Source: Sphaerolaimus hirsutus (Eukaryota; Nematoda; Chromadorea; Monhysterida; Sphaerolaimidae). From it: a stretch of DNA of 64,000 nucleotides. The number at the start of each line of letters is the position of its first letter. Position 1 is the first letter of the stretch. The stretch spans positions 24,142,352 to 24,206,351 of the forward strand of contig OZ038453.1 of assembly GCA_964036195.1 (NCBI GenBank). Direction: 5' to 3'. The notes under the pieces are model-generated. The model was given only the letters and a program-made list of their open reading frames with translations, was not told the origin of the DNA and searched no databases. Positions 10,301 through 58,300 of this stretch are shown in pieces. A program made the position numbers and the translations under genes.

Positions 10301-13300
10301 CCGTTCCGTTTTCCGGCCGCTGAAATTTTTTTTCCGTTTCCGTTTCCGTTTTCCGTAAAAAATTTTGTTTGACACCCTAGTGTACCCCCATTTACCCATA
10401 TCTATTCAGGTATATTTACCGTAAATCCTCGAATTAGTCCCCCCTCGATTAACTCCCCCTTCAAAACATTCTGACGAAAAAATTAACTCCCCCATGGCCT
10501 TTACGGTTGACGTAAAACTGACGATTTACGGTATTTTACTCACACTTTTTAACTCAGATATCTATCCTCAAGTGATTGCGAAAGTTGGCACACGGCACTT
10601 AGTGCTCAAAGTTCCTGCAGTCTACCCGATGCAAATAATTATCCAAATTTTCAAGATTTTGATGATTTTGAACTGGACGATATGAGGGCTGAAAATGACA
10701 CGCCGCTTCCACAAGGTGCGTAAAATTTGTTGTTGTTTTTCAGTGGTGCTACGCACACTAGTTTACTCCCAGCTAGTGATGGAAAAACGCCATGGCGCTA
10801 GCGCCAAACAAAAAAGCGCCATGGCGCTTATGGCGCTTGGCGCCATTTTGCTCTGGCGCCATTGGCGCCATGCCCATGAAAAGCGCCATCATGGCGCTTT
10901 TGGCGCTTGGCGCTATTTTTGACCAGCGCCAGGAACAAAATTCCATGCGCTGGCGCTTAGCGCCACTTTGCTCTGGCGCCATTGGCGCTTGGCGCTTAAG
11001 TTCTGGCGCTTTTCACATCACTTCTCCCAGTCTAGACTAGAAATTTAATAAACTCATATCAGTTTTGAAGGCATTTGAGTTTACCAGAATGAGGTGTCCG
11101 TCAACTACATTTGATCGAGATTGAAAATAACATACTGGTGAACTGATATATGAGTTGACAAAATTTTCAAAATCTTCGTTAGTAAACTGGTGTGAGCAGC
11201 GACAATGCTGAAATAGTATTTACTATTTGATTTGGCAATGTGCCAGTTTGCATTTCTGAACAAACATCAAAATGTAAACCAAACCGCATTTTCAAGATTG
11301 CGATCAATGTAAATATGTGTTTACTTTCTCGGAATGTAAATGTAAATAGAAATGCCAATTATGAAGCAATTTGTAAATATTGTGTAAAGTGATCATTTGC
11401 CAGATAGAAAAAGCTTAAATTTAGAAAAAATTGAAAATTGAGAAGTGAAATGCCAAGCAAAAAATAACGTTTTTAGCGTTCTCTCGGCACTTGCCATATG
11501 TCTCAACACGTTTTAATTGCCATGTCACGTCTCACTCCTCATTCTCTATGTTTTACTTTTAATTTGTTATTCATAAATTTTTTATTATCCACTTGGCACT
11601 AGGGTTCAAACGGGATTGACTTTTCGGGATCGGGATGGATCGGGATTGGTTTTTTGAGATTTCGGGATCGGGATCGGGATCGGGATTGGCCGGGATTGGG
11701 GTCACGGAATTGGGATTGGGATCGGGATTGGCATTTTTTCGGGATCGGGATTGGGGTCTTGGGATAGACATTTTGGCCAATGTTCTGGCATTCACAGTTG
11801 TTCATAAAGGACTCAAAACACTGTTGGATGCCAGAAAATGTCATTTTTTCACTTTTTATAATTTCCACTAATTTTTCCGGGATCGGGATCCCGGACTTGG
11901 GAGATTTTCGGGATCGGGATTTGAAAATATTCGGGATCGGGATCGGGATTGCTTAATCCCGGAATTTCACAGGATCCGGGATCGGGATCGGGATCCCGTT
12001 TGAACCCTACTTGTCACCCTGCCAATTGGCCCGGTGCCAAGTGGAGAAGTAACAATATGGCGGAATTGGCACTTAGCCAATCTAAATTCACAACAACAAA
12101 AAAAACAGTAACCCCTCACCAACATTCATTTTTTTACAATTATTTTTCAGAATCTATCCAACCAGTTACCCCAAAACTATCGCTAGTTCGAAAACTACAC
12201 GACCCCAGAACGAAAGAAGCAATAATTCTAAACCATGAGAAGCCTTTTGAGCAATTGTTATCATTGGCGCTTTCTACTTTACTCACCGTTTTATTGGCTT
12301 GGAGGTTTCTGTTGAATGAAAATAGAAATGGCAGAAATAGTGCGGATACTCGAGGTGCGTTTTGTTGCATTTAATTATTTCTAATTAAAAAAGACGTTTA
12401 CCGTATTTCCTCGAAATACCACCCCTCGTTTGACCCCCCCCCCTCTCGAGACCACTATGAAACAATCACACCCCCTCGAAATACCCCCCCCCAGATTGAG
12501 TGTAAAGAGAACGTACATGACAAATACTGCAGTTTGTGTTCTGCGTAGTGCAGAACACACGTTAAAACAATGTCGGAATCACGTTAGAACAGGGTTTATA
12601 CCATCTACGTACTAATATTAGTCTACAGGAGTCTTTACATGTCAGTTATTGATGCATTTTTCTACCCCAGCGCACATCACAAACAACGATTTTGTTCTAG
12701 GGTTTCAAAAAATTTCTGGCGAAACAAAACCCCCCTCCCCTCGAAATACCCCCCCCCCCTCGTTTACCCCCCCCCCCCCTCGGGAGCACTATGAAACAAT
12801 CACCCCCCGGGGGGTATTTCGAGGAAATACGGTAAATATAGTCTGTGGGCTGCACGCTATGCAGTTTTATGAAGGAAACACTTCAAATGAGGCCATCATA
12901 TTAAAACTTTTTCAAAGATGATTTCATTCAGTTCAGGCACAAAATGTTGAACGTGCTCGAATCCGTGTTTTTCTTTTTTTAATATTTTTTTTGTGAAAGC
13001 GCGTGTATTGAGCCCGTATTACAGCTCAAGCCTATTACGTAAAATCATCACGCAAAATAATTTTTTATTATCTCAAGCGTATTAAAATTATGGTAAAACA
13101 TCATATAACGCAAAATAATTGACGTAAAATAATAATGTAAAATTAAAACTGTTACCGGGAAATTCATAACTAATTAATTAAAGAAGCGCTGTAATGCAGC
13201 CTTGAAAGTGGCCCGTGTAAAATTATATTGTAAGAATTGTAAAATTCAATTCAATATACCATATAAAGACCAGTGGAAACCGCACAGGCCCTTCTGTAAA

Positions 13301-16300
13301 AAGTGGTGCACAGAAACCAACAATGATTGGCAATGTTCCAAGTATAAGCGGGGTATATAAACAGCCTATGCAAATTCAGACAGTTTCGGTGCCAATTAGC
13401 AGCTCCAAAAGACCATTAGGTTTGTGAATTTTTCGTTTTTTTTTGTCATTCTGACGATTTCATTCTCGAAAGGCAATAAAATGGCCCTACACACATCTCT
13501 TTTCGGGGCAGGCCTGATACGCACATCTGCCCGATACGCACATTTGCCCGTTTTTTTCACTTGACACTTTTTCAAGTGATTTTCAGATATGAGTGAAGTG
13601 AAAAAAGTTCACTAATGTCATTGCGCAACTTTTTTCACTTTACTCATATCTGAAAATCACTTGAAAAAGTGTCAAGTGAAAAACGGGCAAATGTGCGTAT
13701 CAGGCAGATGTGCGTATCAGTGCACCTCCCTCTTTTCTACCGAAATTTCGACAAAATTTGTATAACTGTCAACCAGCGTTGAATGCATTTGAGTTTACCA
13801 GAAATAATGTGAATACCAGTGATGTTAATTAAAAATAACTCATTCCGGTAAACCCAAATGTATTAAAATCTGATTTCGAGTTTTCCCAATTTTGTCGAAA
13901 TTTCGGTAGGCACAATATTTCCATATTTATTGCGCATTACTCTTAAGCATCATTCGATTTCAAACGCATCGTAAATACATTTTTGACCTTGGAAATCTAT
14001 TCTCTTCTGTCACGAACACTGTAGGTTTATGTTGCATAACAATACACTGTGAACATTAAATTGCATTTTTATTCCGCGGTAGTTCAAGTTCCGTGACTCA
14101 CGATTAGCATTTAAAAACTTCTGAGAGATCAATTTTTTTTAAATCAGAAAATTAAAAATATATAGTGATTTTATATTTATATTTATACCAGTATTTCCAG
14201 AGATACCGTATATCCTCGAATAAGTCCCCAGGGGAGTTTATTTTTCGTCAGCATTTTTGAGGGGGAGTTATTCAAGGGGGGGGGGGGAGTTATTTTTTCC
14301 TCAGAAAACTTGGACTTGGTTCATTGTATGAATGCATACTTACAACTCATGTAATCCAGGTATTTAACAGTTCTGCAACAACTAAAAGGTGTGTATACAC
14401 TGCGAACACATTATGTATCTGCTGTCGCTGCCATTCTTACGTTAACAATCTTTTGTATTTTCATCGATCAATTGTGTAGCATATTTTTCACCCAGAGGGG
14501 GGAATTATTCAAGGGGGGGGGTATTTTTTTCGTCAGAAGTTGTGAGGGGGGAGTTATTCTAGGGGGTCTTATTCGAGGATATACGGTATTCAATTAAATC
14601 TGAGACGTGTGACTCCTTTCCTACCCATCAAAGTGGGTGACCTATTCGAGGACATACGGTAGATTTAATTTTATTGTCTCGAAATTACCCTATTTACAAT
14701 GCTATTTGCGATGAACATAAAATTCTAAATTAGGTTCACTTAGGCATACATAGTTAAAGTATGCAATAGTTCTTTTTAATGGGGTTTCCTTCCGGCGGGA
14801 TGGATATGAAAAATATATAAAAGGTTATTCAAGAAAAAGTTATTTGTTGCTAAAATCATTCAACGGGGAGTTATTGGCGCTGCGTAAACCAGTTTACTCT
14901 CAGTCAACTGAAATTTTGTAAACTCATAAATCAACTTTGAATGGCATTTGAGTTTACTGGAAATGGATGTTCGTCAACTACAGTTGACGGAGAGTAAAAG
15001 TAACTCATTCCAGTAAACTCAAATGATGCTTGAGTAATGAGTTATGTCTGATTTATGATTTGAGTTCACTAAATTTTGAAAATTTCATTGGTGAACTAGT
15101 TAGTGTATGCAGCAAATGCATTCAAGTGTTTACGGTAGAATGCATGCATTCGCGATTTTCATACATCTGCATGCAGTTTGATAAGACGGAAACTATGTAA
15201 ACACGTTGAAATAAATGAAGGTGCATGGGAGCAGAGTTGTTAAAAGTACTTTTTAGTAAAAGTATTTTTATAAAAAAGTATTCAAAATTTACTCACTGCT
15301 GAAATACAGAAAACGTCAATGTTTTAACCTGTGAAAACGTATAATTACTTTTCCCTAAAAATGGAAAAAGAAGTATTTTGAAATTTTTTCTTTATGAAAG
15401 TTCAATCATTTTATGATTAAAATACTTAAAGGAGAAACTTTTTTAAAGGAGAAAAAAGCTTTTATAAAAAATTTTTCCATAGTGGGGTTATCCAAGCAAA
15501 TACTATTAAAGCATACTGCATTTCCTCGAATTACCCCCGGTGGGTTTATTTTTCAGAGTGAAAATTTTGAGAGAAAAACGTGAAAAATGCAACAATAACC
15601 ACCATTTATAAATTTTTACAGCCTTATATAAGGATGTACCGTATTTCCTCGAAATACCCCCCCCTCGAAATACCCCCCCCCTCGAAATACCCCCCCTCAA
15701 AATGGACACTATGAGCTTATAAACCCCCCCCCCCTCGAAATACCCCCCCCCCAAATTTAGTGTATAGAGAACATAAATGGGAAAGGCTGCGGTTTGTCAT
15801 GCCGACAATGCAGAACACGCGTTAAAAACGATGACTCTGTTATGTGAGAACAGTGTTTGTACGTCTACACACTTATAAATGTCTTTAGAGTCTTATAAAT
15901 GGCGATTTTTGTTGCATTTTTCGACGTCTGCGTACGTTTCAGACGACATTGTAGTACTGGGATTTCAAAAAATTTCTGGCGAAATAATAAACCCCCCCCC
16001 CCCCTCGAAATACCCCCCCTCGAAATACCCCCCCTCGTTTAACCCCCCCTCAAAATTCTCACTCTGAAACAATAAACCCCCCGGGGGTATTTCGAGGAAA
16101 TACGGTAGATGGTATAAACGATGTTCTAACATAACACAGTAAGTGTTTTGAACGTCTGTTATGCATTTCCCGGACCACAAATTCATAGTGCCCATTTTGA
16201 GGGGGGGGGGTATTTCGAGGAAATACGGTACTCAGAAACTTTCAAAAAGTATACAAAAGAGAGGGTAAAAGTAAATACATTTTCACAACTTTGTAAGCAA

Positions 16301-22300: not shown

Positions 22301-25300
22301 TCCATTTATCATTCAGCGCTCAAAAGTTTTGCATTTTTACTTTGTTCCAACTATTTATTGAGCCAAAAAAAATCCATCACAATTGAAACTGGGACATTTT
22401 AGGAATAAAAACACAACACAATAAATATCTAGTGTTGTGCAAACACTTCAGAAAATCCCATCAATATAAAATGCTAACAGATGGCCGTGTTTTTTTGTAG
22501 ATTTGAGGTTTTTCATTGTAGCAAAGTTATTTATACGCCGTGTATTTAGCGAATACTTTATTTAAAGTGCGTTCCATTTAATAAGCCCTACGCACACCAG
22601 TTGACGGAGGAAATGTCGGAAACTGATAAATCAACCTTGAAGACATTTGAGTTTACTGGAATGAAGAGACCGTCAACTATAGTTGACGGAGAATGAAAAT
22701 GATTCATTCTGGTAAACTCAAATGCACTTAAAGCTGAATTATCAGTTTCCAAATTTCCTGCCGTCAACTAGTGTGCCGTACCACATAATCTGCGAACGAA
22801 TACAATGTCACTATATACCGTATTTCCTCGAAATACCCCCGGGGGGTTTATTGTTTCAGAGTGAGAATTTTGAGGGGGGGTTAAACGAGGATGGGGGTAT
22901 TTCGAGGGGGGTGGGTTTATTATTTCGCCAGAAATTTTTTGAAAACCAAGTACTAAATTGTCGTCTGAAACGTACGCAGACGTCGAAAATGCAACAAAAA
23001 TCGCCATTTATAAGACTCTAAAGACTTGTATAAGTGTATAGACGTATAATCACTGTTCTCACATAACAGAGTCATCGTTTTTAACGTGTGTTTTGCATTA
23101 CCCGTATGACAAACCGCAGCCTTTGTCATTTACGTTCTCTATACACTAAATTGGGGGGGGGGTATTTTGGGGGGGGGGGGGTTTATAAGTTCATAGTGTC
23201 CATTTTGAGGGGGGGTATTTCGAGGGGGGGTTTATAAGTTCATAGTGTCCATTTTGAGGGGGGGGTATTTCGAGGGGGGGTATTTAGAGGGGGGGGGGGT
23301 ATTTCGAGGAAATACGGTACTCGTCGGACACCTTGTATGGAAACCTACCATAATTTGATGAATAAAATTTTGTGATAAATTTCGCAATTGATTATTCCAT
23401 AGTAAAAACGAAATATAATGATGAAAACAATGTCTAATTTTTAGTTCATTATTCAGATGGGTTATGGTAGGTTTTCATACAAGTGTGATGTCCGCCGAGT
23501 ATACCTAAATACACTCAATTGTCAATACACACGCCTGTTTCAGTAAAAATGTTTCCATCCGATTTTGTAGCGGCTTAAGCGGCACGTCATTTCATGCTCC
23601 GATGAAAGTCGAATTAAACTTAACCCACATCACTTCGCATGCGTCGTTTTGTAGAGGTGGGAAAGACACCTGGGGCCAGTTCCAGACCCTGTAAAATGTC
23701 AAATGTCACGTAAAATGCCCTGTAAAATGTCAAATGTCAAGTAAAGTGTCAAAAGTCATGTAAAATGCCCTGTAAAATTTCAAAGGAACGTGTCTCATTT
23801 TACAGGGCATGTTACAGGACTTTTGCACTTTGCATGACATTCGACATTTTACAGGGAATTTTACAGGGTCTTGGAGCGCCCCAAGGTGCCCGTGCCGCAT
23901 ATTGAGAAGTGAGACGTAAAATGGCAAATGCGAAGTGAAATGGTAAGTAATGGTAAAAGTAATTTCACTTCGCGTTTGCCATATTACTTCTCAATTCACT
24001 TCGCTTTTGCCATTTCACTTCGCTTTTGCCGTTTTCCTTCTCACTTTTTCACTTAGCTCCCAGACTATTACATTGTAAGATGCCTTGGCAAATGTCAAAT
24101 TTCTCTCAATTTTTACCGGTCACTTTGCATGACATTTTTCATAACATTTTGAATGAATTTAGACACTTTGCGCGACATTCGACAATTTCTAAGGCATTTT
24201 ACATGACTTTTGACAGTTTGCATGACATTTGGCAGGCATTTTACATCACTTTTGACACATTGCATGACATTTTTCATTTTTCAGGGCATTTTACATGACT
24301 TTGGACACTTTGCATGACATTTAACATTTTCCAGGGCATTTAGGAAAGTCTAGAAGTAGCTTCAGTATGGGCTAGATTCAATTAAAATGTAAGCCCCCCC
24401 AACACATGAGTAATTCTAGTGAAATAATGCCATTTTTTGTTTCTGGCGTTTTCAACTGAGACTATCGTTCTATTTAATTGAATTTGGGCCCAGTGTCCCT
24501 GTTTTTGTCAGGAGTTTTTGTCTGGCAAGTTAAGATTTTCAGACAGAGACACATTTCCCGATTAAAAAATTAGTAAGTGGCACCAAGATTTAATCCGTTT
24601 TCTTGCTATAGCAACATTTTAAATGTTATAGCGTCGCGCTCTGCAACAACAAATACCGTAAACCAAAATCTTTAATAAGGACCCCTTTGAACGACCCCTC
24701 TCGAATAACACCCCCCCTTTTTGATGGGTGGGAATGATGTCACTCACGGTCACGGGTTTTTAAAAAATGGTGTAATTTATGCATTGTGTTAAAACATGTA
24801 GCCTACAGCCGATAGGTTTACTAAATATTGCTGATTTCATTCCGTGAATCGTGGAAATTTTATTAGGATATATGGATTTCTAATAAGGATCAATATACCT
24901 TACTAAATTTTTTTGAAAATTTTTACGCTAATATCACCCCCCCCCCCTTGAATACACCCCCATGAATACACCCCCCTCCTTTTAAAACTGAAATGCTAAG
25001 TGGAGTCAACGTTTAATATATAATACCTAGGTGTATTGCACTAGCTAATGATTTATTTCTCCCCAACGAACAAAAAAATATTGCATGTGCTCGTGATGGG
25101 ATCTGGGCAATGAAAAATTGTCCGGATGTATGCATATATTTTTTCTCAATGTGAAATACAGCGTTTTAGCTAACATGTAAAAATTAGTTACTCTGATGTT
25201 TTCTTTTTGAGTAAAGATTGTCAATAAGGTTATGATTTCTAGGTGATGTATTTCGTTCAATACGCTACACACAATCACTAGTTTACTACTGAATTTTTGT

Positions 25301-28300
25301 AAATTATGAAAACACATAATTCAGTTTTGGCAGCAATTGAGTTTACAGAAATGTATATTTTTATCGCCATTCAACTGCAGTTGACAGCCAAATCATTCCG
25401 GTAAACTCAGATGCGTTCCAAGCTTGTTTATGAGTTTCCAAAAGTTTCGGTTGCAAACTAGTGTGTACAGAGGTAGGCTCGTTTGGCATGTAAACCCGCT
25501 TGGCATCAGACCTGTTGTGGAAGTCTCATGGGGTAGCGTTGCTCATCTTTACTCAAGATCACTAAATTTTGCTCCATTTTTTCAATTTTGATATATATAT
25601 ACACACACATATATATATATATATATACATATTTATATATATATATGTATATATATATATATGTATATATATGTATCATATGTATATATTTCGCTCCAGC
25701 GAGCCCCCAGAATAATTTTCAGCTATTAGCTCAGCTCATTTTCAGCTCTCCGGAGGAGGGATTTGTTATCTATCAAGCACCCGCTAGGGTCATAACCTTG
25801 GAAACCCTTGATCCGTTGTCTACATGCCAAACGGGTTACATGCCAATAGGCACAGGGTCATGTGTGTTTACTGTCTGTAGAGCCAATAACTCCTTCCCTT
25901 TTGCACAATACCCCAATTTGCAGGTCTGTCAACTGGACCAAGCACGTCAAAATCGATCGAAAATGGCCCTGAAAATCAGGAAATACCGGCAAAAAATTCA
26001 AAATTATCTCTAGACAATGTCAAGGCGCTTTTGTCTTGCAACGACAACGCGATTTTGTCCAGATCGAAAATCGTTTCGACCAATATAACTATGGATCCAT
26101 TAGATGACGTCATTATGGAATATTCTGAAGAAAGTGAAGGAAAATCAGTTTCCAGGTGCCAATCCCAGACCCTGTAAAGAGCCCTGTAAAATGTCAAATG
26201 TCATGCAAAGTGTCAAAAGTCATGGAAAATGCCCTGCAAAATGGCAACTCGGTTGCCATTTTGCAGGGCATTTTCCATGACTTTTGACACTTTGCATGGC
26301 ATTTGACATTTTACAAGGCTTTTTACAGTGTCTGGGAGTGCTCCCAGGGGTACTTTGCTGCACGAAAATGCTCATATGAACTTGAATGTTTCAAAGAGCG
26401 GTGGAGATTGTCTGGAAATGGTGAGTCGTTTTTGCTTGGGTGATGTAACGTAAATAAAACAGTTCCAGTGGTATTCTTGGGGCACCCCCCCCCCCATTTT
26501 TCCGCATTATTTTATTCCCCATAAAGCGATTTACACCGGCTCTACCTACCCCTTTTGAAGCTGCTAATATTGAATAAAAATATGAATAACAATGGCTCCA
26601 TTCGAAGGCTACCAAATTAAACACACTCAAATTATTTATCCACACACTCATATTTTGCTGACAGAATTACAAAACCCAGGACATATAGTATTTCCTCGAA
26701 ATACCCCCCTCAAAATACCCCCCCCCGTCAAAATGGGCACTATAGATTTGTGGTCCGGGAAATGCATAACAGACGTTCAAAACAATTACTGTGTTACGTT
26801 AGAACATCGTTTATACCATCTACATCCTAATATAAGGCTGTAAAAACTGATAAATGGTGGTTTTTGTTGCATTTTTTCACGTTTTTCTCTCAAAATTTTC
26901 ACTCTGAAAAAATAAACCCCCTGGGGGTGATTCGAGAAAATATGGTATTCCATCTTTACCGCATAAGCACTTTTCTCACTTTTTATACTCTTGGTCAGCA
27001 CACTTGGTTTATGCATCCGCACAAACTTATGTCTTACGCGCCAAAGCACAAACGCAGTACTTTTATTTACAATAACAAAAATTGAAAAAATAAAAAGGCG
27101 GAGTTGCGAACAAACAAGATACCTTTCCAGCCTGAACTCAATTTTTCTTTATTGGAACACTTGTTATTCCATTAATAATGACGTCATGATCCAGTGTTTC
27201 GTTCCAAAAACTGCATAGCATACGGCCCGCGCATCTCCATCCAAGATCACACTCAAAATACCCCCCTCAAATACCCCCCCCCCCCCCCTCACAGCCCCTA
27301 TCACCCCCTCCAGCCCTATCCCCCACGTCAATAGAATCGGATGCAAACGTGGAGGGTGGAGGGCTGCCGCCCTACTTGGACACTATTACTGAGGAGGATA
27401 CTGATGATTTGATGAGTAGTAATAATGAGAATGAGACAAGGTTGGGGGGGGGGGGGTTGAGGGGTTGCGCACACTAGTTTACTGTCAGTAAACTAAAAAA
27501 TGTGCAAACTGATAAAGCAACTTTGAATTGCACATGAGTTAACTAGAATTAGGTGTCCATCAACGGGCGTGCACTGATACTGATACTGAAAATCACTTTA
27601 AAATGTGTCAAATGAAAAACAGTGAAAAATGGCTATTTTTCACGGTTTTTTTCACTTGACACATTTTCAAGTGATTTTCATATATGAGTGAAGTGAAAAA
27701 AGTTCACTAATGTCATAGCGCAACTTTTTTTTCACTTTACTCATATCTGAATATCACTTGAAAAAGTGTCAAGTGAAAAAAACGGGCATATGTGCGTATC
27801 GGGCCTGCCCCTCCATCGGGCAACTACTGTTGATTGAGAAAAAATTCTTTTCAGACAACTCATTCCAGTAAAGTACAATTGCCGTATTACCTCCAATATA
27901 AGGCATCCCTCTAATATAAGGTACCCTCTAATATAAGGTATAACTTTTGGCTATTTTGAACGCGACGAAATAAATAAAAGGTACCCTCTAATATAAGGCA
28001 TACCTCTAATATAAGCACCGCTGGCTGCATGCCAAAACGCTCAAAATCATAAAAACGGTTGGCAAACATGGTGCCGAATGGCACTGCGATAACTCTTCGT
28101 CGACTTCCGCATTTTTTTATTTATCATGTACCACCTATTTCGTGCGTTCCAATTTGAAAAAATGAATTGTATCGTTGTTTACTGTTGGTAAAATTTCTGG
28201 AAAATCTGGCTAAAATAATTGAAGGTACCCTCTAATATAAGGCTCTAATATAAGGTATAACTTTTGGCTCAAAAAAAACTGACGAAAACAATATAAGGTA

Positions 28301-34300: not shown

Positions 34301-37300
34301 AAGTATAGTGCTAGGATGTGTGATTTTTCACCACCCTGCGTTAAGTGTAATATAAAGTGTAAAATGTGATGGAAAGTTTCAATAAAAAAAATAAAAAAAA
34401 TATTTATTGCAGAACTTTTGACACTTTGCAAAACATTTGACAGTTGTAAAAAAAAATTGCATGAAATTTTACACTTCACTTCACACTTTACAGGGTGTGG
34501 GACTGCCACTCGCACCCCAGTCAACTTCCATCAATACCACAACCCCCACCCCCCGAATAACCCCCCACCCAAAAGTTACCCCCTAAAACCCCCCAACCCC
34601 TTTTTACAGTTGCTCCCAGCCGAGTACGAGCACTGCAAGCACCTCCCAAAACGCCCCGGCAGTTCGCAAAACATCAGAATCGTGTATTGCGGCCTTAGTT
34701 CGCACTTCCGCGCTGAGTACTGACTCTCAACCGGAGGAAATTGATGGCAACGATGGGGGTTTGCAGGTGAGGGGGGATTGAGTTGACGGTGCACACTAGT
34801 TGACTGATTAAATTTTGACAATTTTGTCAACTCATAGAAAACGTTTTGAGGGAATTTGAGTATACTAGGGTGAGTTATTTTCAATCTCCGTCAACTGCAG
34901 TTGACAGAAAATTCATTCTGGTAAACTGAAACGATTTCAATACTGATTTATGAGTTTACTAAATTTTCACTATACCGTTGGTCAACTAAAAGCGCAGCGC
35001 CATTTGAGTGTAAGGCGCGCGTAGCCGCCCGACGAACTTTCTACCGTATTTATTCAAATAGAACGGCATACTGATTTTGGGGCTTCGCGTATTGATTTGA
35101 GTTTTCAAATTTTGCGATTCAAAGCGAAAAAGCTGATTACCTATGTTAGATTTGATTTTACAAGAGATATTTCAGCGATCCGAATAAGCACTCAAACTAA
35201 AGAAATATCGTAGGTATTTCCATATTTTTATTTTTCTGGCTTTTCTCATGGTCATGGTGATTTAATCACATTTTAATTCTGAGACATCTTTTTTAATTAC
35301 ACTTTCTCAAAATCACCCCTTCATCGCATACACAATCACAACACCCCCCCCCCCCCACCCCCAGTCGTCAACACCAATCACCGATCGGGGCGCCACCACC
35401 AGACAACTGAACCAACCAGAAACCGACCATCCGTCAACTGAAAACCATTCCAGTCAACTCAGACTGGCGCCCAGTTCGCCGCCGAACAGCGCCGGCGGCT
35501 ACAGCACGGGCAGTAGCGCCGGCACTACTGTGGTGCTAGCGTTGGGCAGCCAGGTGTCAATTTTGGACACTGGAAAGTGACAGGTCAAGTGGCAAGTGAC
35601 AAGTGGAATGCAAAAGGAATACTGTTAAAGGTGATTGAAAATGTCAAGCGAGTAGTGAATAAAATGGAAGAAAATTTGACATTTTTATGACCTCCTCAAA
35701 GTCAACAAAGTGTCAAAGGCTATGTAAAATGTCTTGTGTAAAACTTTCTCTTATCATTTTACTGGCACTTTGACACTTTTCATTTTCATTTTCCATTCCT
35801 TCCAACCGTTTCCACGACACTTGACACTTGACAAGTCACTTGACAGTATCTGGAATTGGCTCCAGGTGCAGACTCAAAGAGATGCCGATGTAAATTGCAG
35901 TGATTTAGAGGTGCAGGAAAGGCTGGCTGATGCAGAAATTGGGGTTGGATTGGGATTGGTTGGTAATGTGAGTTGTTTTTTTTTGTAGGGGGGGGTACTT
36001 TTATGGAGGGGGGTACTTTTTTGGAGGGGGTACTTTTTTGGAGGGGGTACTTTTTTGGAAGTCTGATAAATTACTTACATGTTTTCTAACCATTGTGGAA
36101 ATGTGATTTTTGCAAAATACTTATTGTGTAGAATTTACAACAAATTCAAGTGCGGTTGCAAGTACAATTTGTGTTTGAGGTATCTACTTCTGAAAATGGC
36201 TAATTTCAAAAGTTCAAGAATTGAGTTAAGCACAGTAACGGTGGCATTTGGAAACGGCCCGCATATTTTGCACCATTTTCTAAATGTATTTCAAATATTT
36301 GTTACCCTTTTTGAAAGTGTCATATTTTGACACTTTTGTGACAATTCAGGACCAAGTTTCAGAACATCTCCGGTGTGAGTTGATCCACGCTGTATCAAAC
36401 AAATTTGGAAGATTTATGAATCAGCTTTGAAGGCATTTTAGTTTACCAAAATGAGCTACCCATCTGAAATCTCTTAAATCTCAACAGCAGTTGACAGACA
36501 CCTCATTCATGTAAACTCAAATGCCTTCAAAGCTAATTCACAATTTTCCAATTTTTTGTCAACTAGTGTCAACTTTTATCACTTTTGTCAACTTGACAGG
36601 TGCCCCTCAGCACGTGGACTGTACCCCCTCCAAAAGCGCTCAGAGACGCATACGAAAAATACTGTGCCTTGTCAAAAAGTCAGAAAGAAATCGAAGGTTC
36701 AGCGGACACTTCTGAAGTTTCATCAGATTCGGATCAATTCAAAAATACCCCAGTTTTGGGGCAAAATGAAACTGTTCAGAGTGTGCACGTTTTGAGGTAT
36801 TCAGATTTGCCTGAGATACAGATATCTTTTGATGAACAACCAGAATCTACTTCTGTGGCGGTGTGTGATATTGAAACTGGTCAGTTTTTGGCATTTTTAG
36901 AAGTTATGTTGCATTTATGTACTTTTTGTAACATTGCTTGGATGTAAGTAAGTTTATCTATAAATAATTTAATTTTAAGCTATTCTGTCTAGACCAATTA
37001 CTTTTCCACCATTTGTGAATACAACTGCAAAGAAAAAAACCCATGTGAAACGCTTTGGTCAATTGACTTCCTAATTCTCAACATTTAGATGCGTTTTTTT
37101 CACTTTCTACCATTTTAGCTTACCATAAGTATTATGAAAATGGTGTCAGCTTTTTCTGCGAACTAGTTTGCATATGCAAGTGGGATTTGAAAATTCGTGA
37201 AACATCCTACATGAAATCTGAAGAAATTGCACAAAAGTTTCCTCACAACTGAGTTTTACCCATAAAAAAGAGTGAACAATTCAAAACAATAATTTTCGAT

Positions 37301-40300: not shown

Positions 40301-43300
40301 AGTCGAGTCGGGCAAAAATCTCGAGTCGAGTCGGAACCGTTACTTTTTGACAGAGTTGGAAAAACGTATTTACGTTTACCCGAAATACCCGGTTATTCAG
40401 GTATTTTTACTTACGTTTACGTATACGTTTTCCAAAAATACCATTACGTTTTGTTACGTTTTCCTGACCAAAATACCCGGGTACTGGGGAAAACGTAAAA
40501 AAACTTGTGATCGTTCACACGTGCACATGTTCAGATGGGCCGCACCTAGTGATGTAAAGGCACCGGGGCACCGGTGCCCCGGTGCTGGGCACCGAAGGGC
40601 ACCAGCACCGGTGCTGGTGCGGTGCCATTGCAATCTTCAGGGGTGCCATGCCGGTGCCGGTGCCATTTTTTTCAGAATAGCACCGGTGCTGGTGCGGTGC
40701 GGTGCCATTTTTTTGCCGGTGCCAAAGGTGCTAGCACCAGAGCCAAAGTAAAAGGCACCGGGAAAGGCACCGGCCAAGGCTTCATGTGCTGTGCAATTTT
40801 GTCCATAGTATGTGCTTATTCATATTTCAAAAAACAGCGATATATTTACCCAACCGTTTTTGCCTATTTTGTAAACCTCCCATCAAATAAATATAACTAC
40901 TGTGAAATCCATTATACCCGATACGTGATCTGATGAGCGAATCTAAAATTTTGTTGAATTTTAAATCATTTTTATATTTTATATTTATCTTACTTTTTTG
41001 TTCAAAATTTGTTGTCAGTTTATGACAGAGATAGTTCCATTCTCTGTACAGCAACGACTCCGATCAGTAGACAATAGTGGCTATGGACATTGTAGTGAAT
41101 TAAATATTTTATCTTTCATTTGTAATCATTGTAATTGCTTCAAAAAATTGATTGTCACGTCATTCTGATCATTTTAAGTGCTCAACCATCAAAATCGGTT
41201 GAAAATTCATGGTAATATGCACTTCCAAAGGTGAGACCACTGAGAAACTGCCTGATATTTACTTCAGAAATTCCAGCCCGGTGCGGTGCCTTTCGGTGCT
41301 AGCACCGGCAACCCGCCGGTGCCTTTCGGTGCCGGTGCCATTTTTTCCAAAAGGCACCGGTGCTGGTGCGGTGCGGTGCCATTTTCTGGCCGGTGCCCCA
41401 GGGTGCCAGGTGCTCTTTTCATGCGTTGGCAAAGGTGCCGGTGCGGTGCGGTGCCATTTTTCCCGGTGCCTTTAACATCACTAGCCGCACCACGTGCAGC
41501 CAACAATATTCTTATGTTTTTGCATAAACGTACAAATGTACAAAAAAGCGGTGTATGAAAAGGTGACCGCACGCTTGCACTTGCACATTGAATACTGGGT
41601 ACATATTCATAAATGTGTTCAAATGCTGAACACAGAAACCTTGTTGTTTCTCTGGCGCCGCATTATTAATTTTTTTGTGATGAATTCCGACGACGCCACT
41701 TGCAACAACTGTGAGTAGCACACATTTTGAAACTGGCAGGGCGAGTGCAAGCTCTGGTGCCAATCCCAGTCTCTGTAGGATGCCCTGTAAAATTTCATGC
41801 AAATGTAAAAACGCCTGTAAAATGCCCTTCAAAATGGCAAAGATTTGCCATCGCCCAGGGCATTTTGCATGACTTTAGACACTTTGCATGCCATTTGACA
41901 TTTTACAAGGCATTTTACAGGGTCTGGGACTCCCCCAGAATCACCAGCGTAGCTGGATTTGGCAACACTTACAACAGAAAGTGGTGCAGATGGAGCGATT
42001 GACCCATCTAAAGGTGAAAATAATGGTATTTTCCAAAGCACCATGGCAAATACTGTGTGTAAACACTTTTACGTTTACGTTTTTTTTACGTATTCCTTGG
42101 TATTTTAAAAATACCTTACATTTTAGTATTTATACTTTTGATTTGGAAAAGGTATTTACGTTTACGTTTACATTTTCCAAAAATACCAGTATTTGCACAA
42201 CTCTGCTTTTTGATACAACTCTTGCAGTAATTTTTGATACTTTTTTCTCTACCAATGTTTTCACACACACTTAATGAAGTCTAAATGCCAACAGTTCATT
42301 CAAATATCAAGATAAAGCAAAAATATAAGTTTTTATCACTCATGTTGCTACAAATAAAGTTGCAAAAATAAAATTCTAGGGATGGAAAATCAACATCTTT
42401 TACAACATGTTTTGGATCAGTGCCAACATTGTGCCATGCATTTGAGGTGGTGTGTGTGTTTCACATGTGGCGCTGCACATGCTAGTTTACTGCCAGATTT
42501 TAGAAAACTCATAAATCAGCTTTGAACACATTTTAATTTACCAGAATGACGTATCTGTCAACTGCAGTTGATGGGGATTAAGAATAACTCATTTCAGTAA
42601 ACTCAAATGCGTTTTATCAAAGCCGATTTATGAGTTTACCAAAATCTGGCGCTAAACTAGCATGCACATGCACATTATGTAGAATTGTATGGTAATAGGA
42701 AATTTGAGTTTTAACACCATTCAATACATATGCCAAGCCAATCCACAATATATCATGCATGTGGTGTGGAAATGCGCGCTCACGCACAAAATTTTTGAAA
42801 AATATGTTTCAAATTTCATATCAAAATTGAATTTTCTAGACATTTTTCAATGGAAACCCTGACTCGAAGTTCGCCACAATTTCGAGTCGAGTCGGGCAAA
42901 AACCTCAAGTCTCGAGTTTGGGCCATATTTTTCCGGTCGAGTCAGACGAGTCGAGTCGGTACCCTGTTTTACCCTCGAGTCACGATTCGAGTCGAGTCAA
43001 GTCAGTCGAGTTCGAGCCCTATAGGTATTGTTTGGCTCAAGACACACACCAGTTTTTAACCGAAATTGCGAAAACTCATGAACCAATTTTGCTCACATCT
43101 GAGTTTACCGGAATGAAGTGTCCGTCAACTACAGTTAATTTGTATTCAAAATAACTCATTCCGGTAAACTCAAATGCGTTCAATGCTGAATTATGAGTTT
43201 TCGAAATTTCGGTTGAAAACTAGTGTATGTCTTGAGCCAAACAATACCTATAGGGCTCGAACTCGACTTGACTTGACTCGAATCGTCACTCGAGGGTAAA

Positions 43301-52300: not shown

Positions 52301-55300
52301 TCGAGAAATTTGGTAAAAATCCATTTATCTAGGTCTCCCATTATTTTCAGCACTCAATGCATATACCGTATCTCCTCGACATTCCCCCCTCCCTCAAAAT
52401 GGGCAATATGTATTTGTGGTTCGGGAAATGCATAACAGACGTTCAAAACACTTACTGTGTTACGTTAGAACATCGTTTATACCATCTACATCATTATAAA
52501 AGGCTGTAAAAATTTAAAAATGGTGGTTATTGTTGCATTTTTCACGTTTTTCTCTCAAAATTGTCACTCTGAGAAAATAAACCCTCGGGGGTAGTTCGAG
52601 GAAATACGGTAATATTCATAACCAAGAAAAATACAAAAGCCACAAATTGGAAACTAAATAAAATATCATCACTCGATTGGCTCAGCACTAGTTCACAGCT
52701 TAAATTATAGAAACTGCTTAATCAGCATTGAACACATTTGAGTTGACCGGACTAAGGAGTCTGTCAACTAGAGTTGTCCGGGATCAAAAACTATTTACTC
52801 TGGTGCCAGTTCCGCAAGTGGAAAAGTTAAGAGTTGAGTTGAGTAAAGTGACAAATGGCAAGTTAAGAGTAAAGTTAAATGATAAATGATGAGTTGAGAG
52901 ATAAGAGTAAAGTTGAATGACAAATGATTAGTTAAGAGATGAGAGCAAAGTTAAGAGTCAAGCAAGTGTATCCAAATCTTATGTTTTTGTATCCAGATCT
53001 GATGTTTTTGTATCCAAATCTTATTTTTCGACATAAGATTTGGATACAAAAACATAAGATCTGGATACAAAAAGAAAAAATTGTGCTTGACTCTTAACTT
53101 TACCTTTAACTCTTAACTAATCATTTGTCATTTAACTTTACTCGTAAATTTACTCTTGTCTCTTAACTCATCATTTATCATTTAACTTTACTCTTAACTT
53201 GTCATTTGTCATTTTACTCAACTCTTAACTTTTAACTCTTAACTTTCCCACTTGCGGAGCTGGCCCCAGGTTAACTCAAGTTTTTTCAAAACAGATTTAT
53301 CAGTTTCCAAAATTTTAGCCGTCATCTACTATTGTGACACATTCCACATTTCATGCAAATGTGACAAAACCCAAATAGAGGGAGTGGAAATGAGTCACGC
53401 ATTTACTGGGTATCTAGGATTTTACCTGGTTCAGGTGTATCCAATCCATGTAAACATGCATTTGAGTACACTGCATATGTTAGTGTTGTGTATTTATGTA
53501 TTCAGGTATATTGTGTATTTACCTCGTTGAAAGCACATTTGGCTTGTCATGTTATCTCTGCATGTGGTCTATCTAGATTTATATTTATGTACTCTGAACG
53601 TAAAAAGCACCTTTCTCGGAAATGTAACTATGGTTTTTGCGGTTGAAATTTATTAGAAAGACTTTACATGAGATTTGACAAATTTGCATGACATTTGACA
53701 CTTAAGTTTGCATTGTTTTACAAACTTCCCTCCACAAAAAACAGTCCCAAAATAATTTTCAAACACAGTGTGCAATCGAAATTAGATCCTGTAGAATGCA
53801 GTAAAATAACACACCCAGTATTACAATCTTTGTGACCTTGCATACACCTACATTTGCGCATACCCTTTTCATTTTACCTGTCCACATTCCATAGGCTTTT
53901 GTAGACAGATTCGGACGGGAAAAATACAGGGATGTTTATTTAGAGGGTGGTCCATTTTGAGGAGAATTTTCTTACTCAAATGGGTAGAAATTTCTGAGAT
54001 TTTTCAGGTACCAGTACTAAAGGAACTCAAAATAGTTTAGTGCAATACCGTGTTCTTCTAATATAAGATCGTCATTCTAATTTTTGCCAACTTTTTACCT
54101 GCCGTTCTATTTGGGGCTGCCGTTATATTTCTTCCATAAACTATTTCACCTGGCGTTTTATTACAGTCTGCCGTTCTATTTTTGTTTGGAGTGTAAAAAA
54201 GCCAAAACCTGCCATTCTATTTAAGATTCTCTTCCATTTATTAGAGGTAGGTATGTGACAGGTCGTTCCGTCAAAAAAAAAACGATATGTCACTTGACAT
54301 TTGACATGACCCACCCTGTATCTAAATCGATGTACACATCAATAAATGCACATGGCAAAGGCCACAGGTAAACATCGCACGTGTTTGTGTGGCGCTTTCA
54401 GAGGCGGAATTATTTATTCTACACCGTGTATTTTTGGATTTATAAGGTGTGTACATACGGAAACACACAAAAATTCCTTTTGTGCGCACTTTTGTTGAAC
54501 TTTTGGCATTGTATTCTTTTTATTTCGGACCTTTTTATGCGTCGAATCATAAGTCAGGTACAAAAATGAGTCATACTGATGTGCATAACGATTTTCTGTC
54601 ACATAAGGGTTCACAAATATGACATTTTTGTTAGTCGCTGACATGGCAACAATTCAATGGCCCTACACACTGGTTGACAAGGACACAAAATGTGAACTGG
54701 TTCTCATCCCAATTCAAAGCTTGATGACTAGTGAAACTTCGTCTTATTGTGTACACATAAGTATAGGTATAAGTATACTTCATGTCGACCTTGTATTTAC
54801 ATAGCAGCGCAAACCGCAATATTAGTTTCAACACTACAGCTTCATTTGCAACATGATTAAACACTTTTGCATTTGAGAGACGTTCGTCGGCTCGTCAGCA
54901 AGCTTTGAATTGGGATGAGCACCAGTTGACATTCGGTGTATAGCAAATCATTTTTTCACATCAAGATTTTTATTTCCAAAAATTACTTTCCAGACACTCC
55001 ATCAAGAGCCGTTGCAAACGAAATCATTGCACCAAGGAATAACCAAACCAACGACAACTCTACTAAAACATTCAGACATTGTTCAAACTAAAAGACCTTA
55101 TTTGGAACAGAGCCAAGTCCCAATTACTATGAGTTCATTTGAACCAGTTTGGAGAGAAACGAATGTGAGAGAATTTGAGGTGAAGCCAGATAGAGCAAAG
55201 GTGTGTATTTTTTTAATAAATATAAACATCTTTTGTTACTGTGCATATTTTGTTGAGATTTTCAAAAGTGTAAGATTTAAAGAAACTTTATGATGAGACT

Positions 55301-58300
55301 AAATCTTTGGGTGAGTGTCATTTAATGATGCTGCTTATATAGTGACAGATTAATCAAGTTGACTTCAATTGAATTGGATTTGAAAACAAAAAATGTGTTT
55401 TCCTAATTTCATTTGAATGGACCAAAATTTGTGTCCCTTATTTCATTTGAATGGACCTAATAATTGTGTTCCTTATTTCATTTGAAAAGAAAAAAGTGTG
55501 TTTCTCTGTCTTCCTGAAATAATAAAGTGACAGCTAAATAGTAGACCTCACATAAATAACTGTACAACTGTCAGCATACATTTAGTTTCATAGTTTAATG
55601 TATCATAAAATATTTATGATTTTGTTGTTAAAAAGTAAAGAAATAAGTAAATGTGGTGTGAATTTATTGTCACAAATAGTGATTTTCCAAAAAATCTGAT
55701 ATCAACATGTTTATGTAGAACAAAAATGAATTGCAGATACTAAAAGTTGTAGATTCAGTTGATGTTCTAGATGTAAGTTTCCCATCAATTTGCAACTGTT
55801 TGATATCCACCTTTAATTGTTTTGATGTTGTAACTTTCTAAGGAGACTAGGTGCCAATCCCAGACCCTGTAAAACGCCCTGTAGAACATCAAATGTCATG
55901 CAAAGTGTCAAAAGTCTTGTAAAATGACCTACATTAAGTCAAACGTATAATACATTTGTCATTTTCCAGGGCATTTTACATGACTTTGTCCACTTTGAAT
56001 GACATTTGACATTTTACAGGGCATTTTACATGACTTTGTACACTCTGAATGACATTTGACATTTTACAGGGCATTTTACAGGGTGTGCGACTGCTCCCAG
56101 GCTATCAATGTATTTATACTTCTGCTATCTACAACAATTGGAGAAATTTACACAACTATTGCATGCTTGCTGTTCAAAATGATTTACATAAATTTTTCCT
56201 TTATCCCTTCAACTTGCATATCTATATCCAATGGGGTTTATGCGGTATTTCCTTCCTAAACATTCAGGGGGTAGTACCGCACCCTATAAAGTGTAAAGAC
56301 ACGTAAGTGTCAACTGTCATGTAAAATGTTTATTTTTTTAAATGAACCTTCAACATTTTGCAAGACACTTCTATGTCATTATATGTACATTAACAGTTAC
56401 TTTACACTTTACATGGTGCGGGACTGCCACCAGGGGTGTGTGTGTACTTTCCCAGATTTCACACAAAAATTCCATGACAACAATTTTGTAAAACTTATTA
56501 TTATATGATCCAGTCAACTTACTTGTTGATCAACTGAAAAATTTCAGTAAAATTTGTGTGAAATCTTTGAAAAACCCAAAATTTAATCCATCTCACAAAA
56601 CAACCAAACAAATAACCTAAAAATTTCCAGGTAAGAGAGTACTTTGGATCAGCTGAACATTTGCAATTGCTACTGCAAGATGTGCCACAAAATACACAAG
56701 AAACAGAGAGTTTCTCACAATCAAATGTGGCCCAGAGAAGTGAAAAAGGGCTGCAAAATAGAAATGCCATTTTGTTTCCATCCAGTGATGATTTGCATAA
56801 AATGTTGCAAGAACCAAGGTACAAATCTGAGGAGAATTTGGCGCGGCAGGTATTTTGAATAAATTTAGTCCATTTCATTTGAGAGAAATTAAAGAAATTT
56901 AGTAAACTAATAAATCAACTCTGAATGCACTTGAGTTTACTTAATTTTTATCTCCATCAACTGTAATTTATGAACACATAATTCCAGCAAACTCAAATGC
57001 CTCTCAAAGTTGATTTATGAGTTTACTGCATTTTTTTAGTTTACCTCCAGTAAACTAGTGTGTGCAGCGCCACTTACCTTAGCTAGCGAGGCTTTTCTGT
57101 CGTTTTTTTTTCTATTACTTGGATCAAATGGATTACTTATTTATGACTAACGATGGCAAACTAAAATTCAAAATTAAAATTTTAAATACTTTTTTCCATA
57201 GGGTTTGCCATCGTTACTTATGACTAGTGGTCTGGGGGCAGTCCCAAGCCCTGTAAAGTGTAAAGTAAAGTGTCTAATGTAAAATCAAATGCAAAGTAGT
57301 GTCAATCAAAACAAAATTTGTCAATCAACAAGTCAATCAACAAATATTTTATTACTGAACTTTGCATGACAATTGACAGTTAACTTTGCATTTGACTTTA
57401 CATTTGACACTTTATCTTACACTTTACAGGGCTTGGGACTGCCACCCGGTGTGTACTAATGTTAACCAGACAAGAATTTTTATCACAAATGAGACTTAAT
57501 TATAGCAACTTTCATCCAAATTTTCAACTACGACATTGCATTCAGTGTCACATAAAGTCTGAGAAACCACGAAACCACCTCTCGCAGAGCGAAACTTGCA
57601 TGCCGTTATCACAGGAAAATTTAGCTGCATGGAATTCACAAGTCCCAGAAAATCAGAAAACCAGTATTGTACAGCAGTGGTTGGAGCCAAACAGGTTTGA
57701 TTTTTTAATTTTTGCAGAAAAAGTGGGGTTGTATAATGAACAGTGAAGTGTTGTGAAGTGGCTTCACGCTGACACTTCTCGATTCTTCACTAAGCGTGAT
57801 AGTGCTTACACATGAAAACTTGTGTGAAGAAAGACACTTCATTCATACTTTTTATAAGGTGATGGCAAGATAATGTATATGTTGGTGATGTTTGTGAAGC
57901 ACGGATAACGGCAAGTGCATTCCACAGTTTTGTATGCACGTGAAGTAGATGTGAAGCTAGGTGAAGCATGTTGAAGAAACCGGAACCATAAAACTTACGC
58001 TGCTTGTGAAAAATAGTGGAAGCACGCCGCGATCCATTTTTGATGATTTTTCGATTATACCATTAACAGCCATGATGAATTTTGGTGTCCGAAGCTTTAT
58101 AAATTGCGACAGCTTTTGTATAGAACGATCCATGGCTCCACCTATCAATGTGACACTTTTTGCGGTAAAAAATCTCTAGTTTAATGCCACAAAATGATTA
58201 AACATTGAAAAATTTCAATTTAAACCAAAAAATTGAACCTTAAAGAATCCATAAAAACACAGGCCATCACACTCCGCCACTGGCAACTATCAGAATCAAT

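Follow-up and report, generated by a model that had tools for sequence, protein, structure and literature searches.

The window, a 64,000-nucleotide stretch of contig OZ038453.1 of the nematode Sphaerolaimus hirsutus, carries between two presumed exons a 192-bp piece (26156–26347) that begins with GT (26156–26157) and ends with AG (26346–26347). This piece consists of a 189-bp near-perfect hairpin transposon together with a single CAG, one of the two copies of the 3-bp target duplication. The features at this locus are as follows.

25924–26155, plus strand: presumed upstream exon (exon 5), with an open frame and a TTTGCAG acceptor, without homologue
26153–26155, plus strand: left copy of the target duplication, CAG, at the very end of the presumed upstream exon (matching triplets in 43 of 60 copies, the triplet varying between copies)
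26156–26344, plus strand: hairpin transposon proper, 189 bp, GTGCCAATCCCAGACC...GGGAGTGCTCC (from the comparison of ends in 57 copies)
26156–26157, plus strand: putative 5′ splice donor GT, within the left tip (one tip GT and the other GG in 36 of 45 copies with ≥88% identity)
26160–26248, plus strand: left arm of the hairpin (inverted repeat, 94% complementary; fold)
26252–26340, plus strand: right arm of the hairpin (inverted repeat, 94% complementary; fold)
26345–26347, plus strand: right copy of the target duplication, CAG, putative 3′ splice acceptor (copy comparison; CAG versus CTG class effect)
26348–26420, plus strand: presumed downstream exon (exon 6), followed by GTGAGT (open frame; donor at 26421)

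The two arms are 89 nt each and are separated by a 3-nt spacer, and the RNA is predicted to fold over its whole length, with an energy of −153.1 kcal/mol (z = −22), a value equalled by 0 of 200 shuffled sequences. An earlier note on this DNA had described the piece as a complete terminal-inverted-repeat element, with GT first and AG last and both splice sites in the terminal repeats. The GT and the AG are present as described, but the element measures 189 bp and its supposed last three bases are the right duplication; of the two, the GT alone belongs to a terminal repeat, and the AG comes from the duplicated target. CCAGG, which had been offered as either a target duplication or part of the tips, does occur at both ends, but the duplication is the 3-bp CAG, and other copies have CTG, CCG and other triplets in its place. 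CCAGG as the target duplication is ruled out, as the copies vary as CNG triplets.

The junction codon is in phase 2, as the earlier note had it, and with the element left in, a stop is reached at the eighth codon counting from the junction codon, inside the ten codons that had been given. The claim that the frame stays open only upon removal of exactly 192 bp proved incorrect: exact removal leaves 123 codons open across the junction, against 98 when one base more is removed and 119 when two more are removed, and the frame test at this locus does not discriminate between these removals. The presumed exons had also been assigned to an active-looking gene. The exon pair does have a good acceptor in front of it (TTTGCAG before 25924) and a good donor behind it (GTGAGT at 26421), but it has no homologue and its codon use is weak. 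A search requiring shared 5-residue words found no homologue of the joined peptide of exons 5 and 6; the proposed frame is the best of six by codon use, and 80 of the 312 stop-free stretches in the window score as well. The coding nature of exons 5 and 6 is weakly indicated. None of 10 other long open reading frames in the window gave a Pfam match above the cut-off.

The genome surveyed comprises 348.5 Mb in 762 contigs. Its COX1 gene reads well with TGA as Trp, AGA as Ser and ATA as Met, which probably indicates an invertebrate with a table-5 type of code, and at least 120 COX1 matches show 57–71% identity. Allowing zero mismatches, a two-tip pattern gave 203 + 212 = 415 matches genome-wide, against 0 for the control. 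When the 192-bp piece was used as the query, 40 of 2457 first-look candidates were scored, and the full-length places among the matches listed were 91–100% identical on the better strand. The dispersed relatives that the earlier note had seen exist both in the window and across the genome, and the genome search for the tips that it had called for led to copies in conserved exons. Two samples were drawn. Sample A held 57 copies around the first set of places, 13 of which were excluded for want of a GTG or GCG tip, and sample B held 60 copies from the first 62 of 100 listed two-tip places (of the 415; contigs C1 to C3), with two C1 places omitted, one of them having letters identical to its neighbour; the combined sample amounts to 104 copies.

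The triplets to the left and right of the element are equal in 43 of 60 copies when the right border is not slid, and are mostly CAG or CTG: CTG/CTG in 19, CAG/CAG in 18, CCG/CCG in 3, CGG/CGG in 2 (L061 and L062, which share their flanks and represent one event) and CAT/CAT in 1. A 3-bp CWG duplication, CAG/CAG or CTG/CTG, is therefore present in 37 of the 60, with 6 more copies showing other matching triplets; the mismatched pairs include CAG/CTG (3), CTG/CAG (2) and CTG/CCG (1). CNG stands on both sides in 48 copies, and the middle base agrees in 42 of these. Because the triplets match on both sides, the element starts with GTGCCA and stops before the right triplet. Its tips differ, one reading GT and the other GG, in 36 of 45 close copies (≥88% identity). 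Outside the triplet, C occupies position −4 and G position +1 in 18 of 34 copies each. These two outer bases look like a preference in the choice of target, which makes the favoured site similar to CCWGG. In the tally of all 104 copies, where the right border was allowed to slide by up to 3 bases toward the left triplet (the counts for the 60 copies are unslid), CTG on the left with CAG on the right was found in 10 copies, two of which represent one duplicated innexin event, versus 4 copies with the reverse arrangement. The two arms of a copy showed no sign of concerted evolution, own-arm identity exceeding that to the best other copy in only 1 of 60.

Removal of the element together with one triplet restores the protein in conserved animal genes, including UNC13 (twice), an innexin, a glutamate receptor, PRMT5, AMPK-gamma and others. 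The queries for the homology searches were chosen by eye among the joined frames, and the hits consequently give no rate. Matches to UNC13A run through the join without a gap at the removal point both in the C1 domain region (E = 2e-38) and in the MUN domain (E = 1e-56); both copies are CAG/CAG and sit in a single locus (L013), where the neighbouring introns, inspected by eye at five donors and five acceptors, conform to GT and AG. Matches through the join were likewise obtained to GluK4, a kainate/AMPA receptor (4e-22), and innexin-6 (2e-12, with a query peptide common to two neighbouring paralogues), both gapless at that point and with CTG/CAG borders, and to AMPK-gamma (1e-38) and SLC23A1 (5e-16), both again gapless there and with CTG/CTG borders. 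The innexin paralogues (L024 and L032, on contig C7) carry the element at the same site, with CTG on the left and CAG on the right, and have since diverged, the element being identical at 185 of 191 positions and the left exon at 235 of 240.

Two batches of 10 queries each were compared with Pfam, with 1 query over the cut-off in the former and 6 in the latter (Oscp1, RsmB-F, AMP-binding, peroxidase, PRMT5_TIM and KxDL). Judged by span positions only, the match covers the join in three CAG/CAG copies, namely PRMT5_TIM (4e-10) and KxDL (1e-8), with profile and protein spans of equal length, and Lustrin (4e-6; 47 versus 46 positions), as well as in Oscp1 (4e-17; CTG/CTG) and AMP-binding (2e-12; CTG/CAG, with profile and protein lengths unequal). 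The RsmB-F match lies entirely on one side of the removal point, and the peroxidase match is counted only as exceeding the cut-off. RGS (L096) and Tudor (L080) stayed below the Pfam cut-off, and Frag1 (L011:3216) gave a weak match only. Homology running through a join indicates that the element entered a coding exon, which does not by itself imply splicing. In the exons of UNC13 (two copies), Lustrin, KxDL and PRMT5, the copies extend from CAG^GT to CAG^ (the caret marking the border), with similarity reaching both putative splice borders, and these CAG-bordered copies are presumed to be introns.

Some further copies deserve mention. The joined frame of L093 is the one that matches Pfam peroxidase (3e-8), a family unusual in animals; L094, about 5 kb from it on contig C2, gave no Pfam match and by eye resembles the same peroxidase family. 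The reverse-strand copies L044 (L044:601) and L067 look exonic by eye and have no GT on the 5′ side of the gene; we take their frames to be serine-protease-like and TMEM165-like, respectively.

Next to individual genes, the open frame across the join after exact removal was compared with that after removals 1 and 2 bases longer in 102 of the 104 copies, leaving out L032 (a duplicate) and one copy with short flanks. In CAG/CAG copies, exact removal lengthened the open frame by a mean of 17.4 codons (n = 39, p = 2e-5), as against −2.3 codons in CTG/CTG copies (n = 30, p = 0.38), and the two classes differ (p = 0.001). The CAG/CAG effect held in either of the two samples taken by itself (n = 18, p = 6e-4; n = 21, p = 0.004), was stable over flank lengths of 150 to 290, and persisted (n = 23, p = 8e-4) once 16 copies that had been chosen by eye or studied by homology were set aside, an exclusion made after the joined frames of all copies had been printed. 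No significant effect was found in antisense reading (p = 0.10 to 0.15), and the remaining mixed classes gave +5.8 codons (n = 20, p = 0.16). The CTG/CAG copies, in which an AG is present, showed no frame effect as a class (+1.2, n = 9, p = 0.5), which goes against a simple AG rule, although three CTG/CAG genes are conserved ones. The frame effect is the expected trace of selection for AG at the join, and GT and AG appear to matter in the CAG class; borders not conserved as GT-AG, a feature of nonconventional hairpin introns, do not characterise this class, given the CAG-specific effect.

Taken with the independent copies in conserved genes, the test over 102 copies supports the DNA-transposon-derived introner family that the earlier note had proposed. 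We consider it highly probable that a hairpin DNA transposon enters exons at CWG and that a CAG target turns it into a removable GT-AG intron. Points that count against this reading are the CTG/CTG copies in three conserved genes, the CTG/CAG class with its lack of a frame effect and the two reverse-strand copies that look exonic. A short, non-autonomous, palindromic hairpin would be moved into exons by a transposase that duplicates its 3-bp CWG target, of a type seen in the NuwaI group of the PIF/Harbinger-related PHIS superfamily. One tip presents GT immediately inside the duplication, and at a CAG target with this tip upstream on the coding strand the product would read CAG^GT...hairpin...CAG^. 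The transposon tip would then act as the donor and the duplicated target as the acceptor, and removal, presumably by the spliceosome, would restore the original reading frame. A CTG target leaves no terminal AG, and such exonic insertions would mostly be lost. As for candidate transposases, scoring 150 of 306 candidates gave at least 163 DDE_Tnp_4 matches genome-wide, none linked to the hairpins. Many of the DDE_Tnp_4 matches listed have near-equal scores and take up 633 bp for 147 positions (e.g., C7:3244940-3245572); the excess is 192 bp, mostly with 4 TGA, and has the same length as the introner. The excess may reflect an introner inside the transposase. By eye, none of the listed introner places (100 of the 415 two-tip places, on C1 to C3, and the places found with the 192-bp query) overlapped the listed DDE_Tnp_4 matches.

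Exonic copies could instead be recent gene-breaking insertions that are left unspliced. At least one stop is met in all 17 inspected copies when unspliced, and CTG/CTG copies do lie within conserved genes, both of which suit such damage. However, one UNC13 locus holds two separate copies, two innexin duplicates that have diverged since share a site, and a CAG-specific frame effect is expected only if the AG matters, which makes this explanation very unlikely. The stops also bear on the idea that the element is translated in frame, which is ruled out in these 17 copies, each having at least one stop in the assumed frame. RNA-based copying of spliced introns by reverse splicing, in place of DNA transposition, would agree with splice borders that coincide with the ends of the exonic copies; it is hardly credible in view of the terminal inverted repeats, which point to DNA transposition, and of matching triplets that vary between copies and include CTG, CCG and CGG, without AG.

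For the window copy at 26156, membership of the introner family makes splicing probable. At this locus only, the piece might be an ordinary hairpin MITE that lies by chance in a non-coding stretch or a larger intron, with exons 5 and 6 unreal. The host peptide without homologue, the weak codon score, the frame almost as open after a removal 2 bases longer and the many copies with unrecognisable coding flanks keep this reading a serious one, if on balance unlikely, since family copies interrupt conserved exons, CAG/CAG copies as a class give longer frames on exact removal, and the acceptor and GTGAGT donor at the window flanks suit an exon pair.

The CTG/CTG copies found in three conserved genes, AMPK-gamma, SLC23 and OSCP1, terminate in TG and lack the AG. 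With the tip as donor, AMPK-gamma has AGs 18 and 30 bases upstream that are in frame and open, and OSCP1 has one 45 bases upstream; in SLC23, no AG within 75 bases upstream is open in the phase of the gene. These copies may reflect cryptic-site splicing, another mode of removal or recent damage. One such mode would be hairpin-guided removal without need for AG, which has been proposed for Amoebophrya hairpin introns and described in euglenids. The end-to-end fold of the window intron, the occurrence of CTG/CTG copies in these three genes and the want of an open in-frame product from the upstream AGs of SLC23 argue for it; the CTG/CTG class has no frame effect, however, AMPK-gamma and OSCP1 have open in-frame upstream AGs, and internal donors are also possible, so that we regard it as improbable. 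A more specific version, in which the three copies are removed exactly by the 89-bp hairpin joining the borders and later CTG-to-CAG changes make ordinary introns of them, is decidedly doubtful; in its favour are the 10 of 104 copies with CTG on the left and CAG on the right, as against 4 with the reverse. If it is true, new introns would depend on structure at first and become GT-AG introns later.

Introners are a leading candidate for bursts of intron gain, and a later paper on their horizontal transmission may cover this lineage. An introner family is here found in an invertebrate genome, and introners are rare in animals. A hairpin landing at a CAG site in genes is a likely route for the origin of new introns. 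The system has a built-in control, as the same hairpin lands at CAG or CTG and a terminal acceptor follows CAG landings only; through this contrast, what the lack of an AG costs, and any removal guided by structure, can be measured directly in an animal.

Several known systems resemble this family in part. Among the papers searched, one, on fungi, names introners and Harbinger elements together. The large survey of Gozashti et al. 2022 (PMC9860276) places introners in only two animal groups, and its account of Chrysochromulina combines the plan seen here, an element-borne 5′ site and a co-opted 3′ site, with a 4-bp duplication and no inverted repeats. The introners described there are likewise repeated introns made by DNA transposons, some families with terminal inverted repeats and target duplications, whereas the present family has a 3-bp CWG duplication, a near-complete palindrome and an animal host. 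CWG target duplication is shared with the NuwaI group of PHIS (PIF/Harbinger, ISL2EU, Spy), which the relevant part of PMC4482050 places only in animals. NuwaI tips usually start with GGG according to that part; here, one tip starts with GG and the other with GTG; the NuwaI passages do not mention introns, and the hairpins here are without a linked transposase. Introner elements of Amoebophrya, in the portion of PMC7789003 devoted to them, are also hairpin introns with inverted repeats and 3–5 nt direct repeats at the borders, but have non-canonical borders and inverted repeats of 8–20 nt, compared with GT-AG in the CAG class and 89-nt arms here. The non-canonical introns of Fritillaria borealis, as outlined in PMC13326754, are animal introns with a similar triplet at both borders (YAY there); 95% of introns in that species escape GT/AG, whereas the ordinary UNC13 introns here fit GT-AG. 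In euglenid nonconventional introns, by the descriptions in PMC4770533 and PMC6221363, RNA structure also joins the intron ends, but those introns lack conserved borders, while GT and AG appear to matter here.

Related hairpins elsewhere in the window are the following.

23673–23886, strand unassigned: related copy with GGG-type tips, GT donor absent
35554–35865, plus strand: second introner-like hairpin of a diverged family, 312 bp, CAG/CAG ends (removal joins a 120-codon open frame)
41757–41938, plus strand: related copy, CTG on the left and CAG on the right, without coding evidence
52803–53269, plus strand: larger element that belongs to another family but shares the tip plan, with CTG on the left and CAG on the right
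55851–56100, plus strand: related copy with a longer right arm, without coding evidence

The joined 120-codon frame at 35554–35865 is proline-/serine-rich and has a higher codon-use score than the other two forward frames. The window is also filled with many C-rich long inverted repeats (TACCGTATTTCCTCGAAATACCCCCC) and with a second family that has TTGAGTTTACTGGAATGAG in its arms; examples of these repeats lie at 12471–12770, 15731–16030 and 62992–63291.
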